Shown: positions 461-37,326 of the stretch, in pieces | How positions within the stretch are numbered: position 1 is the first letter of the stretch | Layout of the letters: every line of letters starts with the position of its first letter | Assembly: GCF_001886955.1 (NCBI RefSeq) | Contig: NZ_CP016804.1 | Span: forward strand, 1-64,000 | Direction: 5' to 3' | Length of the DNA: 64,000 nt | Source of the DNA: Halodesulfurarchaeum formicicum | GTDB lineage: Archaea > Halobacteriota > Halobacteria > Halobacteriales > Halobacteriaceae | Notes under the pieces: model-generated | What the model saw: the letters and a program-made list of their open reading frames with translations, nothing else | The model's database searches: none | Told to the model about the DNA's origin: nothing | Made by a program: the position numbers and the translations under genes

Positions 461-1945
461 ATGGAAGAGGAAGGCCACACATCGGAAACACACGGGGCGG
501 AACGAGACTTCGAGGTGGATCTCGACGAGGTCCTCGAAGACGAGTCCGAGACCGATCAGGGACTCTTCGACGATCTCCTCTCGGGCAAACCCATCTTCGA
601 GAACAAGGAGGTCCTCCGTCCCTCCTATACGCCACACGAACTGCCACATCGGACCGACCAGATCAACAAGATGGCGACGATCCTCGTCGCCGCGCTCCGC
701 GGGGAGACGCCCTCGAACATCCTCATCTACGGGAAGACCGGGACCGGGAAGACCGCGAGCGCGAAGTTCGTCAGCCAGGAGCTCGAGGCGACCTCCGAGA
801 AGTACGACGTCCCCTGTCGAGTCGAGTACATCAACTGTGAGGTGACCGACACCCAGTACCGAGTCCTGGCTCAGCTCGCGAACACGTTCATCGAACGCAA
901 CCAGGCCTACGTCGAGGACCGACTGACCGATCTCGAGGACCTCCACGAGCGTGCCCGCGTGGATTCTGCCATCCTGGCGGACTCGAACTACGATTCACTC
1001 GGGGATCTCCAGGCCGAGATCGACCGACTCGAAGCCGATCGGGCCGAGATGGAGCCGGTCCCGATGACCGGGTGGCCAACCGACCGGGTGTACTCGACGT
1101 TCTTCGAGGCCGTGGACTACGTCGAGCGGGTCGCGGTCATCATGCTCGACGAGATCGACAAACTCGTCGAGAAAAGCGGTGACGACGTCCTTTATAATCT
1201 CTCCCGGATGAACTCGGAACTGGAGAACTCACGGGTCTCGATCATCGGCATCTCGAACGATCTGAAGTTTACTGACTTCCTCGACCCGCGAGTCAAGTCC
1301 AGCCTGGGCGAGGAGGAGATCGTCTTCCCGCCCTACGACGCCAACCAACTCCGGGACATTTTGACCCACCGGGCGGACGTCTCCTTCAAGGACGATGCCC
1401 TCTCCGAGGATGTTATTCCCCTCTGTGCGGCGTTTGCCGCTCAGGAGCACGGTGACGCCCGACGTGCCCTCGATCTGCTCCGGACCGCGGGGGAACTCGC
1501 CGAACGCGAACAGGCCGAACAGGTCACCGAGGAACACGTTCGGAAGGCCCAGGACAAGATCGAACTCGATCGGGTCGTCGAGGTCGTCCGGACCCTCCCC
1601 ACGCAGTCGAAACTCGTCCTCTATGCCATCGTCCTCCACGAGAAACACGGGGTGCGGAACATCAACACCGGCGAGGTCTACAACATCTACAAGCGACTTT
1701 GCACCGAAATCGACGCCGACGTGTTGACCCAGCGCCGGGTCACCGATCTCATCAGCGAACTCGACATGCTCGGGATCGTCAACGCGGTCGTGGTGAGCAA
1801 GGGTCGTTACGGCCGGACCAAGGAGATCAGCCTCTCGGTCCCGGTCGACGAGACCGAGACGGTCCTGCAGGCGGACTCACGCATCGGTGACGTGGGGGAT
1901 GTGTCTCCGTTCCTCCAGGCGCGTTTCGATGGCGATCACAACTGA
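461..1945 (+). CDS. orc1: Orc1/Cdc6 replication initiator
   Basis: This 494-residue AAA+ initiator should bind ORB elements and load the MCM helicase. The Walker A motif GKTGTGKT is at residues 91-98. Walker B (VAVIMLDEID) is near 224-233, the sensor 1 strand (IIGISND) near 261-267, and the sensor 2 segment (GDARRALDLL) near 331-340. A C-terminal winged-helix region follows. A charged helical stretch at about 145-200 lies between the first core strands and Walker B. It sits directly downstream of the origin-like region, as origin-linked orc genes do. The ATG at 461 follows a short GTCCC/GGGAC inverted repeat at 433-453, which could take part in autoregulation. The family assignment is certain; which orc paralog this is cannot be told from the sequence. 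Confidence 0.96.
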   Translation: MEEEGHTSETHGAERDFEVDLDEVLEDESETDQGLFDDLLSGKPIFENKEVLRPSYTPHELPHRTDQINKMATILVAALRGETPSNILIYGKTGTGKTASAKFVSQELEATSEKYDVPCRVEYINCEVTDTQYRVLAQLANTFIERNQAYVEDRLTDLEDLHERARVDSAILADSNYDSLGDLQAEIDRLEADRAEMEPVPMTGWPTDRVYSTFFEAVDYVERVAVIMLDEIDKLVEKSGDDVLYNLSRMNSELENSRVSIIGISNDLKFTDFLDPRVKSSLGEEEIVFPPYDANQLRDILTHRADVSFKDDALSEDVIPLCAAFAAQEHGDARRALDLLRTAGELAEREQAEQVTEEHVRKAQDKIELDRVVEVVRTLPTQSKLVLYAIVLHEKHGVRNINTGEVYNIYKRLCTEIDADVLTQRRVTDLISELDMLGIVNAVVVSKGRYGRTKEISLSVPVDETETVLQADSRIGDVGDVSPFLQARFDGDHN

Positions 1946-3637: not shown

Positions 3638-5173
3638 GTGCCGCGTGCGTCGCCCGTCCGGATCGTGAAACAGCTCACCGCGGCCGGCTACAACGCCGAT
3701 CGCGAAGCCGTCACGCTGTTAGCCGGCGCGCCGGACCCGGACCGAGCCGTCGAGGCCCTTCTCGACCAGATCGAGTCCGAGACGGTGACTATCACTGCCG
3801 GGGAGGTACGGGCGGTCCTGAACGGGGCCACCCACCGAACCGACGATACCACCGTTTCGGGTGGAGGGGAAACAAGCACAAATCGATCGAAAGCGGCCGC
3901 GTCCGCAGCTGAAGTAACGGGGGTCGAACAGGCCGATCAGGAAGCGTCAAATCGATCGCCCCGCGACCCGGCTGAACCCATCGTCCACGGGGACATGACC
4001 GGCGAGAGCACTGGAACCGGCGAGTACGAGGACTTCGTGTCCGTGTTTCGGGACCGCTACGAACGGCTTTCGGCCATGCTTCGCGGGCGGGTCAAACACC
4101 GCCCGACCGACGCGCTCGAATCGATGCCCGGGGGCGCTGAGGGCGCGCTCATCGGGCTGGTGACCGACATCCGTTCGACGCGAAACGGGCACTGGCTCGT
4201 CGAACTCGAGGACACGAACGGAACCTTCCCGGCGTTGGTGATGAAAGACCGGGAGTTCGCCTCGGCCGTCGAGGAACTCCTTCTCGACGAAGTCATCGCC
4301 GTCCAGGGAACGCTCTCCGACGATGGCGGGATTCTCTTCGTCGATGACCTCTTTTTCCCCGACGTTCCCCGGACGTTCGAACCCTCGACCGCCGACAGAC
4401 ACGTGCAGGCCGCCCTGGTGAGTGACCTCCACGTCGGGAGCCAGGAGTTCCTCGACGGGGCCTGGGCGGATTTCGCCGACTGGCTGCACTCACCCGCGGC
4501 CGACGCCGTCGAGTACCTGCTGATCGCCGGGGACATGGTCGAGGGCGTGGGGGTCTACCCCGACCAGGACGAGGAACTCGATATTATCGACATCTACGAG
4601 CAGTACGAGGCCTTCTCGGAGCGGCTCAAGGCCGTCCCCGGGGACATGGAGATCGTGATGGTCCCCGGCAACCACGACGCGGTGCGACTGGCCGAACCCC
4701 AGCCGGCTTTCGAGCCCGAACTGCGGAAGATCATGTCAGCTCACGACGCCCATATCTACAGCAATCCCTCGACAGTCACCCTGGAGGGAGTCTCGATCCT
4801 GCTCTATCACGGCGTCTCCCTGGACGAACTCGTCGCGGAGCTCCCCATGCCGGAGGTCAGTTACGACCAGCCGGATCAGGCCATGGCCCAGCTCCTGAAG
4901 AAACGCCACGTCGCCCCGAAGTACGGTGGGAAGAACCGGATCGCCCCGGAGAAACAGGACTATCTCGTCATCGAAGACATCCCGGACGTGGTACACTCGG
5001 GCCACGTTCACAAACTCGGTGTCGGAGCTTACAACGACGTCAGACTGGTGAACTCCGGCTGTTTCCAGGGCCAGACCGCTTTCCAGCGGAGCGTCAACAT
5101 CTCCCCCGACGTGGGGACCGCGCCGATTCTGGATCTGGACACCCTTGAGGTAACCGTGCGGAAGTTCGCCTGA
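3638..5173 (+). CDS. polB: DNA polymerase D small subunit DP1 (3'-5' exonuclease)
   Basis: This is the proofreading subunit of the archaeal replicative polymerase PolD and partners with the large subunit at 52.2 kb. It has 511 residues from the GTG at 3638, chosen because the family N-terminus has the pattern M-P-x-x-x-P-x-R-I-V with a short helical domain after it; the upstream ATG at 3542 would add 32 atypical residues. A variable linker (about 75-130) precedes an OB-fold. The calcineurin-like phosphoesterase domain follows, with SDLH near residue 262, GDMVEG near 300, GNHD near 344 and GHVH near 455. It is divergent from the signal peptidase gene, with about 94 bp between starts. Confidence 0.93.
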   Translation: MPRASPVRIVKQLTAAGYNADREAVTLLAGAPDPDRAVEALLDQIESETVTITAGEVRAVLNGATHRTDDTTVSGGGETSTNRSKAAASAAEVTGVEQADQEASNRSPRDPAEPIVHGDMTGESTGTGEYEDFVSVFRDRYERLSAMLRGRVKHRPTDALESMPGGAEGALIGLVTDIRSTRNGHWLVELEDTNGTFPALVMKDREFASAVEELLLDEVIAVQGTLSDDGGILFVDDLFFPDVPRTFEPSTADRHVQAALVSDLHVGSQEFLDGAWADFADWLHSPAADAVEYLLIAGDMVEGVGVYPDQDEELDIIDIYEQYEAFSERLKAVPGDMEIVMVPGNHDAVRLAEPQPAFEPELRKIMSAHDAHIYSNPSTVTLEGVSILLYHGVSLDELVAELPMPEVSYDQPDQAMAQLLKKRHVAPKYGGKNRIAPEKQDYLVIEDIPDVVHSGHVHKLGVGAYNDVRLVNSGCFQGQTAFQRSVNISPDVGTAPILDLDTLEVTVRKFA

Positions 5174-30107: not shown

Positions 30108-30311
30108 TTACTCCGAAACGGTGATCGCGTCGACGGGGCAGGCCTCGGCGGCCTCCTTCGCGCGGTCGATGTCGCCGGCGTCTTCGAGTTCTTCCATCCC
30201 GTCGACGACGTGAGCGAACCCGTCGTCGCCCATCTCGAAGATGTCGGGATGCATCGATGCACAAACCTGGTCCGCGATACAAAGGTCCTGGTCGACTTCA
30301 ACTTCCGCCAT
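30108..30311 (-). CDS. Small ferredoxin, single Fe-S cluster with Asp in the motif
   Basis: A 67-residue acidic ferredoxin. The cluster ligands appear as C11-x2-D14-x2-C17 and C58-P, i.e. three cysteines plus an aspartate in place of the second cysteine. Similar Asp-bearing motifs occur in Pyrococcus furiosus ferredoxin and in 3Fe-4S-type ferredoxins, so either a [4Fe-4S] with an Asp ligand or a [3Fe-4S] cluster is expected. The start at 30311 (MAEVEVDQDL) was chosen; an ATG at 30326 would add five residues. The redox partner is unknown. Confidence 0.87.
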   Translation of the reverse strand: MAEVEVDQDLCIADQVCASMHPDIFEMGDDGFAHVVDGMEELEDAGDIDRAKEAAEACPVDAITVSE

Positions 30312-30645
30312 GATGGTAGTACCCACTTTCCGGGTAGTGACTGCCGATACATAAGACGCCCTATCTCGTCGGCAATCTGGGTGAGAGTCTCACACACGAA
30401 CGCGGGCGGCTGGAGCCACCAACACCGCCAGTAGCCCGTTCGAGCCGAGTGTTGCCCCACTGTACCGGTGTCGTCCTGGGGCAGCGAGGGTTCGTGGGAC
30501 CTTCGTTTCGAAAGCCTCTTCTGTTCTACACGGTTTTGCCACGATCCCGACGCAGTTCGTGGGTTTGTGTCTCATTCTCCAGACGAAACGAAGGGGTTCG
30601 TCCCCGAGTGCCAACCGTTTTGGCCGTCCTCGCCCAACGACCGCT
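30312..30645. other. Gene-free region holding ORB-like motifs
   Basis: A 334-base region between the divergent ferredoxin gene and the membrane spermidine-synthase-like gene. No gene was supported. It contains an inverted pair of ORB-like motifs (30500-30510 and 30583-30597) around a 72-nt centre that looks somewhat AT-richer, described separately. Confidence 0.55.
30500..30600. promoter_or_regulatory. Inverted ORB-like pair, distant from orc1
   Basis: CCTTCGTTTCG (30500-30510) and CGAAACGAAGG (30584-30594) are exact inverted copies. The right element extends to ACGAAACGAAGGGGT (30583-30597), identical to the origin motif at 129-143. Counting six more bases upstream, 20 of 21 positions match the origin copy. 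The G-rich tails point outward, as in the inverted pair beside orc1. Function is inferred from motif similarity only. Confidence 0.5.
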
Positions 30646-32205
30646 ATGGATACGCCCCGCGTGCGTGCGGACTGGTTCGACGAGCCCACGCTCGCGGTGC
30701 TGGTCTCCGGGGTCGCGAGCATGGGTCTGGAGATCCTCGCGGGACGAATGATCGCTCCGGAGTTCGGCAGTTCGATCTACACCTGGGGGAGCATCATCGG
30801 GGTGTTCCTCACCGCGCTGAGTCTGGGCTACGCACGGGGTGGCCGCCGCGCACAGACCGTTGCAAGTGTCACCTCGCTCCGGACGCTGTTGCTCTGGTCG
30901 ACGGTGTACGTCGCCTTCCTGATCTTCGCCGGGGACTTCCTGATTCGTCAGACCGCGACGCTCCCGATCCCGGCCCGTTTCGGCTCGCTCGTGCCGGTCA
31001 CGCTGCTCTTCGGCCCGCCGACCTACCTCCTGGGCTTCATCAGCCCCTACGCGGCCGAACTGTCCCGAACCGAGAGCACCGGGGCGGCCTCGGGACGGGT
31101 CTACGCGCTTGGCACCATCGGGAGCATCGTTGGGGCCTTTGGGACGACGTTCCTCCTGATCCCGGCCTTTTCCATCGAGGTCATCGGCCTGATCTTCGGC
31201 GGGATGACCCTCGTTACGGCCGCCGCCCTCGCCTTTCCGAGTCCCTCGAATCGGGAGGTGATTCGCGTGCTGCTCGTCACGGCGCTGCTCCTCGGGGCGG
31301 TCCTCGCACCCCCGTTCGGGGTCGCCATGGCCGGGGAGACGGTCTACGAGACCCAGACTGCTCACCAGCAACTCCGCGTGGCCGACCAGGACGGGGTCCG
31401 CACGCTGTACCTCGATGGGGTCTCACACAGCGCGATGGACCTCGAGGATCCCGATCGGCACGTCTTCACCTACACCCGCTATTTCCACCTGCCCTTCCTC
31501 TACACCGATTCGGTCGACGATGTCGAGAACGTCCTGTTCATCGGCGGAGGCGGCTTCACCGGGCCGAAGATCTTCGCCCAAAAGTACGACGTGAACGTGG
31601 ACGTCGTCGAGATCGACCCCGGGGTCGTCCAGGCCGCCCGGGACTATTTCGACCTGGAGACCGGCCCGGACCTCTCGGTTCACACCATGGACGGGCGGCA
31701 GTACCTCCGGGAGACCGACACGGAGTACGACCTCATCGTCCTGGACGCCTACAAGCGGGACACGGTGCCCTTTCACCTGACCACCACGGAATTTTTCGAC
31801 CTCACCACCCAGCGGCTCTCCGCGGACGGCGTCCTCCTCGCGAACATCATCTCGGCCCCCAGCGGGTCCGGGTCGGCCTTCTTCCGGGCGGAGTATCGGA
31901 CCATGGAGACCGTCTTCCCGACGGTGACGGCCTTCCGGACCGCCCAGCCGGGGGTCGTCCAGAACGTCGAGATCGTGGCGACCAAACAGTCCTCCTCGCT
32001 CTCGACGGCCGAACTCCGCGAGCGGGCCGCGACCCGACCGATCGGCTACGAACTGGACGACGCCATCGACAGACAGGTCGAGTCGGTCCGAACCACGGAC
32101 GTGCCGGTGCTCCGGGACGACGATGCTCCAGTCGACTCGCTTTTGGACCCCATGGTCGGCCAGCGCTACGTGATCGAGACCGGCGAGCGGACCACGACCG
32201 CCTGA
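30646..32205 (+). CDS. Membrane-fused spermidine synthase-like protein
   Basis: A 519-residue protein. The first 215 residues or so hold about six to seven membrane helices (segments such as LVSGVASMGLEILAGRM and GFISPYAAELSR). The rest is a Rossmann-type spermidine synthase/methyltransferase-like domain with the nucleotide loop FIGGGGFTGPKIF, the acidic VVEIDPGVV and the motif DLIVLDAYKRDTVPF. This fused architecture is common in haloarchaea, but its product is not established and it need not make polyamines. The ATG at 30646 gives a soluble N-terminus before the first helix. Confidence 0.85.
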   Translation: MDTPRVRADWFDEPTLAVLVSGVASMGLEILAGRMIAPEFGSSIYTWGSIIGVFLTALSLGYARGGRRAQTVASVTSLRTLLLWSTVYVAFLIFAGDFLIRQTATLPIPARFGSLVPVTLLFGPPTYLLGFISPYAAELSRTESTGAASGRVYALGTIGSIVGAFGTTFLLIPAFSIEVIGLIFGGMTLVTAAALAFPSPSNREVIRVLLVTALLLGAVLAPPFGVAMAGETVYETQTAHQQLRVADQDGVRTLYLDGVSHSAMDLEDPDRHVFTYTRYFHLPFLYTDSVDDVENVLFIGGGGFTGPKIFAQKYDVNVDVVEIDPGVVQAARDYFDLETGPDLSVHTMDGRQYLRETDTEYDLIVLDAYKRDTVPFHLTTTEFFDLTTQRLSADGVLLANIISAPSGSGSAFFRAEYRTMETVFPTVTAFRTAQPGVVQNVEIVATKQSSSLSTAELRERAATRPIGYELDDAIDRQVESVRTTDVPVLRDDDAPVDSLLDPMVGQRYVIETGERTTTA

Positions 32206-34536: not shown

Positions 34537-34560
34537 CGAACCCCTCTGTTTCAACTGGAG
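34537..34560 (-). promoter_or_regulatory. Isolated ORB-like element
   Basis: On the minus strand this reads CTCCAGTTGAAAC followed by AGAGGGGTTCG. It matches 20 of 24 positions of the element at 30577-30600, including the CTCCAG prefix and the AGGGGTTCG tail. It sits in the intergenic gap just downstream of the cgi121 stop. A role in Orc binding is inferred from similarity only. Confidence 0.4.
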
Positions 34561-34576
34561 AACTCGATCCGTCGCC

Positions 34577-35068
34577 TCACTTCTCGACGTCCAGCAGCGC
34601 CACCCGTTCGAGCACCAGGTCGGTGAGGGTTCCGGTGGTCGCCGCCCGCTCCGCACGGGTGATCCCGAAGAAGTCGGTGAGACGCTCCTCGGAGGGCGCC
34701 ACCGATCCCGCCGAGACGAGTTCGGCGACCCCCTCAGCCGCTGCAGCCTCTCGTTCGCCGTCGATCAGGACGATCACCGATTGCTCGCCGGTTCCCAGGC
34801 CGAGTTCCATCGCCCGGTCGATCTGTCGGCGGCCGGCCGCATAGCACAGGACCTCGACCGCGAGGTCGTCGGCGACGTTTTCGCCCCGTTCCATCGAGCG
34901 CTTCGCGTGGGCAAGCGCCGATTCGAGGTGGGCCGACCCGGCGATGTAGCGGGCGTCGAAGGCCTGGACCAGCACGTCGTGGTCCGTCCCGACACGCCGG
35001 AGCGAGTCGAGGAACGACTGGAGGTCGTCGTCTCCGTCGATCGTCACCCGGCCCGTCACCGTCTTCAC
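34577..35068 (-). CDS. cgi121: KEOPS complex subunit Cgi121
   Basis: A 163-residue small subunit of the KEOPS complex that makes the t6A modification on ANN-decoding tRNAs; Cgi121 binds the tRNA and activates the Bud32 kinase. The segments [22 protein letters not shown] and [18 protein letters not shown] match the family core. The ATG overlaps the stop of hel308 (ATGA), a gene order seen in other haloarchaea. The other KEOPS subunits are not in this window. Confidence 0.88.
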
Positions 35069-37326
35069 TCGAACTCACCCAGATTGGCCTGCGTGCCCTG
35101 CGAGTTCTCCGGGGGGTCCTCCCGTGTGGACGTGTGCTGGCTCGACGGTGTGTCCTCATCCGCCTCGACCCCGTCGAGGTCCGGATTGGGGTGCCCCGCG
35201 CTCGCGAGGACTTTTTCCGTGGTCTTTTGCCGTCCGGAAAGCGCCGCGAGCACCCGTCCCGGATCGGCCTGTCGCAGGTCTTCGCGGGTCTCGAACCCAG
35301 CCTCCCGGAGACGTCTGGCCCGCTTGCGGCCGACGTGTCGGATCCCGACCAGGTCGAGCAGGTCCGCCCGGATGCCGTGTTCGACCCGGATCCGGGCCTC
35401 GCGAATCGCACTTGCCGAACTAATTTCGAGTTCCCCGGCGAGTCGCTCTGCGGCCTGGAGCAGCCACTCGGCGGTCTCGACCTTCCCACGGATGTCCCCG
35501 GGGCCGACGCCGTAGCGCTCGGCGATCCGGTCCTCGTCGAGCTCCTCGGCCCAGTCCTCCAGGAGTTTGGCGGTCTTCAGGGCCGAGAGCCAGTCCTCGA
35601 ACTCGCCCTCGGCGAACTCGGATGGGGTCTGCCCGAGCAGTTCCCGCTCCCGCTCGTAGGCGATCTCCGTGTAGGTCGACTCGTCGCCGGACTTCAAATA
35701 TAGCTCGTACATGTCCGGCGTGCGACTCACCAGGTGATAGAGCCCCAGCGGGGAGGGCGAGCCCTCACCCGCACGGAGTCCGTCGATGATGATCGCCGCG
35801 GACATCGGATCGAGGTAGAGCTGGGAGACCAAATGACCGGCCGGCGTGGCCCGCAAGTCGCCGTTCTCCCGGACCAGGAAGTCGTTTCGATCGAGATACT
35901 CGAGGACGTCCTCGGTGACCGCCTCCAGCCGGGAGGGATCGTCGGTCTGGGAGGCGTACAGCGTCTCACCGAGGAATTCGAGCAACCCCTCGTGACTGTG
36001 GACGAAGCCGGTGGCGACCGTCGAGAGCACGTGTGAGCGCAGCGCCGGCTCGGCGGCCAGCTTCGAGCGAACCGGCTCGGGGTCGGCATAGACATAGCGG
36101 TCGAACAGCTCCTCCAGTTCGTCGTGGGACTTCGCGAGCAGGACGGCCTCGCCGTGAGGGTCACGGCCGGGCCGGCCCGCCCGCCCGAACATCTGGTGGA
36201 CCTCCAGGGTCGAGAGCGGGGCCATCCCACCCGTCGACCCGTCGTAGCGCCGCCAGTCCCGGACCACGACCCGCCGGCTCGGCGTGTTCACGCCGGCCGC
36301 GAGGGTGGGCGTGGCGCTGACAGCGCGGATCAGCCGCTCCCGGAAGGCGTCCTCGACGAGGGTGCGATGGCCGCGCGCGAGGCCAGCGTGGTGAAAGGCC
36401 GCGCCCTGCTCGACGGCCGCCGCCAGATCCTCGCTGGTCTCCGTGTCGCTGACGGCCCGGATCTCGTCGGCGACTTCCTGGAGGGCCTCCCGGTCCGCGG
36501 CGGAGAGGGCCGATTCGGTCACCTCACCCAGCCGCCGGGCCGCGGCCTCGGCGTTCCGTCGGGAGTTGACGAAGACCAGCGCCGAGCCGTCCGCCGCGAT
36601 GGTATCCGCGACCAGCGCCTCGGTCTGGTCCTGTGACCCGGTGGGGAGTTCCGTCGTCGAGCCATCATCGAGGTGCAACGCGTCGCCGTAGTGGACCCCG
36701 GTCCGGAGTTCGATCGGTCGCCAGTCCGAATCGACCAGTTCGGCCTCGAGCCAGTCGGCGATCTCGTCGGCGTTGCCGATGGTCGCCGAGAGCGCGACGA
36801 CCTGGAGGTTCGGGACCCGCGAACGGAGCTTCGCGAGGGTCACCTCCAGGGTCGGGCCCCGGCCCCGGTCATCGACCAGGTGGACCTCGTCGGCGACGAC
36901 ACAGGCCAGGTCGTCGATCCAGTCCGCGCCGTTCCGGATGAGCGAGTCGACCTTCTCGGAGGTCGCGACGACCACGTCGGCGTTCCCCAGCCAGTCGCCG
37001 TCTTCCTCGTAGTTGCCCGTCGAGACCGCCACGTCGAGTCCGAACTGCTCGAAAGCCTCGAACTCGGCGGCCTTCTCGCTGGCGAGGGCCCGCAGCGGCA
37101 CGATGTACAGGGCCATCCCGTCGGTCTCGTGGATGGCCGAGAGCATCCCGAGCTGGGCGATGAGGGTCTTGCCGCTCGCCGTCGGCACGCTGGCGACGAC
37201 ACTCTCCCCGGAGAGCACGCCGGCCTCGACGGCCGCGGCCTGGGGCGGATAGAGCTCCTCGATGCCCGCGGACACGAAGTGTTCTGTCACCCCGTCGGGC
37301 AGCCCCGACAGGTCCTCGATCTGCAT
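35065..37326 (-). CDS. hel308: Hel308-type DNA repair helicase
   Basis: This Ski2-like superfamily 2 DNA helicase acts at stalled replication forks, unwinding lagging strands in the 3'-5' direction. The 753-residue protein has a Q-motif (LYPPQAAA, residues 26-33), Walker A PTASGKT (48-54) and the DEVH box in [11 protein letters not shown]. Motif VI reads [12 protein letters not shown]. The C-terminal part contains the ratchet domain and a helix-hairpin-helix ([19 protein letters not shown]). A hydrophilic tail of about 40 residues ends the protein. It is co-transcribed with cgi121. Confidence 0.94.

Follow-up and report, generated by a model that had tools for sequence, protein, structure and literature searches.

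Organization of the origin-proximal region

The stretch of DNA analysed, hereafter the window, comprises the initial 64 kb of the single 2,085,946-bp contig (NZ_CP016804.1, assembly GCF_001886955.1) of Halodesulfurarchaeum formicicum. The right ORB of the main origin, oriC1, was located from the sequence and by a consensus scan at 125–143 on the plus strand, where it reads CCACACGAAACGAAGGGGT and is followed by the G-string GGGGGG; the same approach placed the left ORB on the minus strand at C1:2085870-2085888, outside the window at the contig end, and therefore the real oriC pair straddles the contig junction. The left arm (C1:2085871) has one mismatch to the 14-mer core, each arm reads CTCCACACGAAACRAAGGGGT and then enters a G-run, and the centre of the origin is 57% AT, with a best 40-nt stretch of 75% AT. 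In Haloarcula hispanica, oriC1 no longer functions when the extended G-string is mutated, and the loss of either ORB impairs it (PMC3936714). An extra box, CCAGTTGAAACAGAGCGGT, with one mismatch, occurs outside the window at C1:2085660-2085678, roughly 200 bp to the left of oriC's left arm.

Regarding the genes, the initiator orc1/cdc6 (461–1945, plus strand) has Cdc6_C, Cdc6_lid and AAA domains, and genes with a Cdc6 C-terminal domain occur twice in the genome, at 1.6 kb and 2018 kb. The gene for the small subunit of DNA polymerase D, DP1 (3638–5167, plus strand), was assigned on the basis of 61% identity over 542 aligned positions and the DNA_pol_E_B domain. The site at 30.5 kb sits in a divergent intergenic region, with a 67-aa ferredoxin-like gene on its left (30108–30311, minus strand; named by sequence reading, with a counterpart called in the related genome G002) and a membrane spermidine-synthase-like gene on its right (30646–32205, plus strand; Spermine_synth, E 1e-11). 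The window also holds cgi121 (34577–35068, minus strand; CGI-121 Pfam family) and the hel308 helicase gene (35065–37326, minus strand), the latter recognized by a domain scan and its orthologues.

The site at 30.5 kb

The 15-mer ACGAAACGAAGGGGT occurs in exact copies at 129–143 and 30583–30597, both on the plus strand, as the initial annotation had claimed and a scan of the 64-kb window confirmed, with no further match at ≤1 mismatch in that window; its statement that the surrounding 21 bp match at 20 positions was also correct, the context CTCCA[C/G]ACGAAACGAAGGGGT agreeing at 20/21 positions between the oriC box and the 30.5-kb box. The right arm of the site is a satellite ORB, CCAGACGAAACGAAGGGGT (30579–30597, plus strand), with 0 mismatches to the 19-bp consensus; it continues as TCGTCCCC, without a G-string. 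As for the inverted partner, the partial arm CGAAACGAAGG (30500–30510, minus strand; G-rich end outward) is indeed an exact inverted 11-mer, and 73 nt separate the two 11-mers at 30500–30510 and 30584–30594, but it does not hold as a full box, since in the 19-bp frame 30497–30515 it has 6 mismatches to the consensus and the right arm has 0. The left arm is followed by TCCCACG, where oriC instead has GGGGGG.

This arrangement had been described as the layout of an archaeal origin; the resemblance is real, but the parts of a working origin are missing. The 72-nt centre (30511–30582) is 49% AT and has no AT-rich unwinding element, its best 40-nt stretch reaching an AT fraction of 0.50 versus 0.75 at oriC; neither arm carries an extended G-string or G-run; and no orc gene adjoins the site, as the initial annotation had noted, the two Cdc6_C genes lying at the positions given above.

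Regarding conservation, both arms are kept in G002 (same genus; neighbour protein 97% identical), the right arm exactly, and in the more distant G001 (neighbour protein 79% identical) the right arm is kept as CCAGTTGAAACAAAGGGGT in diverged surroundings and the left arm is absent. Outside the genus, no comparable box was found at ≤2 mismatches near the spermidine-synthase-like homologues. Judged from its sequence, the site would be a full Orc1-type box with a weak inverted half, outside the origin and within the origin-proximal domain.

Box census and the site at 34.5 kb

The exact 14-mer core occurs in only two places in the 2.09-Mb genome, oriC and 30.5 kb; among the copies with one mismatch, one is the oriC left arm and three others have no shared flanks. 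At ≤1 mismatch, CCASNYGAAACRRAGGGGT is found in five places genome-wide (125, 30579, 34540, 2085660 and 2085870), none of them more than 35 kb from oriC; at two mismatches there is none in the genome, and at three mismatches there are 17 matches, mostly scattered and chance-like, versus a total of 11 with the reversed control. The motif is therefore not common in the genome, the point for which a genome-wide scan had been proposed as a refuting check.

The box at 34540–34558 (minus strand; consensus scan), CCAGTTGAAACAGAGGGGT, did not feature in the initial annotation; it is a second satellite ORB and a full ORB-type box, placed directly 3' of cgi121 between convergent genes. It has a copy in G002 at C1:535138, boxes next to hel308-cgi121 in several haloarchaeal families are its syntenic counterparts, and its conservation within the order exceeds that of the 30.5-kb site. 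The window holds at least two satellite boxes, at 30.5 and 34.5 kb; by sequence comparison, the former is genus-specific, its left arm being shared with the closest relative alone, and the latter is the widespread one.

Satellite boxes across haloarchaea

Among 23 genomes of the family, the 13-mer core had 69 occurrences versus 1 for its reversed control. Exact CCAGNYGAAACRRAGGGGT was present in 59/73 genomes of the order, with 0 for the reversed control, and the remaining 14/73 had no exact match of this class; the 103 exact sites that were placed against orc1 in the 73 genomes again compare with 0 for the reversed control. A chance origin of the boxes was rejected, given the two exact copies in the genome and the reversed controls of 0–1 versus 69–103.

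By distance from orc1, 48 of the 103 sites lie at <5 kb, 48 at 5–150 kb, 4 farther away and 3 on other contigs. Counting the sites at >5 kb on the same contig as orc1, 48/52 are within 150 kb, versus about 10% expected, a comparison for which the binomial p-value overstates the evidence because the genomes are related; the clustering draws its weight from many families and from several separate loci. Three of the four far sites may in fact be near oriC, because orc1 stands at the contig start and chromosome ends were not wrapped. In a looser set from closed or near-closed chromosomes, 15/21 sites were origin-proximal.

The main locus is hel308-cgi121, often before purO, where 22 genomes together have 26 satellites no more than 6 kb from hel308; of 30 fetched hel308 loci, 10 have a box up to 1.5 kb away on the 3' side and 4 have one on the 5' side. 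In one genus, boxes occur at an ABC-ATPase/methyltransferase locus about 7–9 kb from oriC, with related places elsewhere, and serB/serA and sufS are further box loci, each in single genera. Inverted box pairs with outward tails, 56–84 bp apart, recur among relatives. The orientation of satellites relative to oriC, judged by eye from coordinates, is inconsistent between genera.

The boxes fall into two classes by their tails: GGGG occurs in the 8-nt tail of 133/180 oriC boxes, 7/43 boxes beside hel308, 7/80 in DP1 and 0/26 by orc1, where classes were assigned by neighbour gene and are rough, the class 'other' mixing oriC boxes on short loci with satellites. Satellite boxes are mostly without the oriC G-string.

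The inverted pair inside the DP1 gene

A decayed box with 3 mismatches (3846–3864, minus strand; consensus scan) lies within the DP1 gene of H. formicicum, at the position of an inverted ORB pair that many haloarchaea retain. The two arms are 20 codons apart, within a poorly conserved linker, and measure 59 bp start to start (e.g., L316:4164-4241, L317:6344-6421 and L218:3481-3558). At least one arm at ≤3 mismatches was found in 60/66 DP1 reading frames, versus 3/66 for the last 900 nt, some of these loci having been fetched by motif; the codon count was restricted to arms that were not exact scan matches, and in these the box codons were present in 16/16 (CCA/GAA/GGG) and 9/9 (CCC/GTT/GGA). 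In the codon usage of DP1 genes, CCA makes up 12% of Pro codons and GGG 26% of Gly codons. The box codons being fixed in the linker, the DNA itself is what is kept. Conservation of the linker peptides at the protein level was rejected, since the same box in opposite orientations gives two different peptides, and also because the choice among synonymous codons, in part uncommon ones, is fixed. In the DP1 pair, a non-coding signal clearly overlaps with a gene for replication.

A proposed role for the satellite boxes

The sites are read as putative Orc1 boxes because their whole core is common with the oriC boxes, and the 30.5-kb site is very probably a satellite Orc1-binding site and not an origin. 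From box identity, Orc1 would bind the satellite box; it would open no DNA there, because the extended G-string and the unwinding element are missing. Given their nearness to oriC, satellite copies would be duplicated soon after initiation, and the duplicated satellites may take up Orc1 and so dampen re-initiation, by titration or by inactivation. Such a function would be tied to the origin and not to a promoter, because nearness to oriC is kept, the neighbours vary by genus, and boxes lie inside genes or between convergent genes. Titration of Orc1 was one of the options listed in the initial annotation, and the order-wide clustering around oriC and the independence of any one neighbour gene favour it.

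Taken as a whole, origin-proximal satellite Orc1 boxes acting as an initiator sink seem the best explanation, one that we hold to be somewhat more probable than not; for the sink itself as the mechanism of the satellite boxes, the chances may be put at about even. For a sink, two single boxes on each chromosome would be a low number unless Orc1 is present in small amounts, and Orc1 might bind less strongly where the G-string is lost. The 14/73 genomes with no exact match and the genus-bound conservation of the 30.5-kb site also count against this explanation. Haloarchaea are polyploid, and polyploidy could weaken titration by copy number. In a broader form, the order-wide, origin-centred class of Orc1 boxes without a G-string, placed at conserved loci and with the DP1 pair included, is tentatively considered an undescribed system dedicated to the control of initiation or to segregation, at chances just short of even.

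Alternative explanations

Chromosome organisation is the main open rival to the sink: the satellites would mark an origin-proximal domain for segregation or folding, read by Orc1 or by a protein of the same specificity, like bacterial parS. The small number of sites, their clustering within about 150 kb of oriC and their tolerance inside genes fit such a mark, as do the keeping of position rather than neighbour and the recurrence of outward-tailed inverted pairs 56–84 bp apart; the sequence, however, is the replication initiator's own box, and this role is considered unlikely. Orc1 might otherwise act as a transcription regulator, bound 49–67 bp upstream of the spermidine-synthase-like ATG and controlling that gene or the divergent ferredoxin-like gene, with other satellites controlling hel308-cgi121, purO, DP1 or orc1. 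The divergent intergenic position of the 30.5-kb site, the right arm still found upstream of the spermidine-synthase-like gene in G001, the boxes closely upstream of orc1 in several family members, and the global transcription regulator Orc1-2 of Sulfolobus (PMC9738581) all point this way. The promoter role raised in the initial annotation is possible for the 30.5-kb site, but it leaves unexplained the 34.5-kb box between convergent genes and the DP1 and ABC-ATPase boxes within genes, and from genus to genus the sites stay near oriC but have different neighbours; regulation by Orc1 is judged unlikely. As a general explanation, the spermidine-synthase-like promoter was discarded, since the homologues beyond the genus have no box at ≤2 mismatches.

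Two further readings concern a past or latent origin. That the boxes are relics, either of a former oriC copy or carried by rearrangement, and without present function, would agree with the degenerate left arm at 30.5 kb and with the decay of the DP1 box in this genome, which indicates that such boxes can be lost; the core is nevertheless unchanged in G002, G001 keeps the box despite diverged intergenic surroundings, and the sister box at 34.5 kb has syntenic counterparts in other families; this explanation appears improbable. Even more doubtful is the dormant or orc-less origin that the initial annotation had suggested for 30.5 kb: Haloferax mediterranei has dormant origins (PMC4595724), and the site has an inverted pair with G-rich ends outward and a core identical to the oriC box, but the left arm is partial, the centre has no AT-rich stretch, the extended G-string that is essential at H. 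hispanica oriC1 (PMC3936714) is missing, and no orc gene is adjacent, whereas the dormant origin of H. mediterranei depends on an adjacent cdc6 (PMC4595724). The proposal found no support and is considered very improbable.

Relation to known systems

A close parallel for an initiator sink is in H. hispanica, where the ORB-rich region oriC2D, downstream of oriC2-cdc6E, restrains oriC2, likely by titration (PMC3936714). There too, initiator boxes outside the origin and without origin activity are thought to restrain initiation (PMC3936714); oriC2D is, however, a dense cluster adjoining oriC2 and cdc6E, whereas the satellites are single boxes or pairs about 3–150 kb from oriC1, at conserved loci, and of the oriC1 type without the G-string. 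With the haloarchaeal oriC1 itself, the 30.5-kb site shares the core box and an inverted arrangement that faces outward (PMC3528665, PMC3936714), and it differs in having no extended G-string, AT-rich element or orc gene.

Among bacteria, the datA locus of Escherichia coli likewise binds the initiator at a site apart from oriC and lowers initiation; it has five DnaA boxes and IHF binding (PMC5295017), while no IHF-like partner is known for the satellites. In Bacillus subtilis, removing the DnaA-box clusters outside the origin together leads to early initiation (Okumura 2012, cited in PMC5295017); several initiator-box sites lie around but outside oriC, similar to the satellites, with the difference that the bacterial sites are clusters of boxes for DnaA and the haloarchaeal satellites are Orc1-type and mostly single. 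The Orc1-2 protein of Sulfolobus is a DNA-damage-responsive Orc1 homologue that also acts away from origins (PMC9738581); it is a global expression regulator, whereas the satellites are few, near the origin and many of them outside promoters.

The open-licence papers searched describe ORB clusters next to orc genes, and no satellites at hel308 or in DP1. The control that keeps an archaeal origin from firing twice is largely an open matter, and the satellite set bears on that question. The conserved initiator boxes outside oriC1 are defined sequences that can be deleted individually in genetically tractable haloarchaea, which opens initiator titration at the main origin of archaea to a direct test.

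Other box arrangements

In the genus g4, a box ends some 11 bp before the start codon called for orc1 (e.g., L181:3039-3051, genome G018), which suggests autoregulation of orc1. Next to a TFB-like gene at L224:3604-3962 (G048 C1:1885603-1885960), there is an inverted pair with full G-strings. The orc1 hit is 159 kb away; the pair resembles an origin that has become separated from its orc gene, or else the match taken as orc1 is not its partner. The genome G036 has no orc1 hit at the threshold chosen, yet at L226 (C39) an oriC-like box pair with G-strings stands beside an Orc-like gene.
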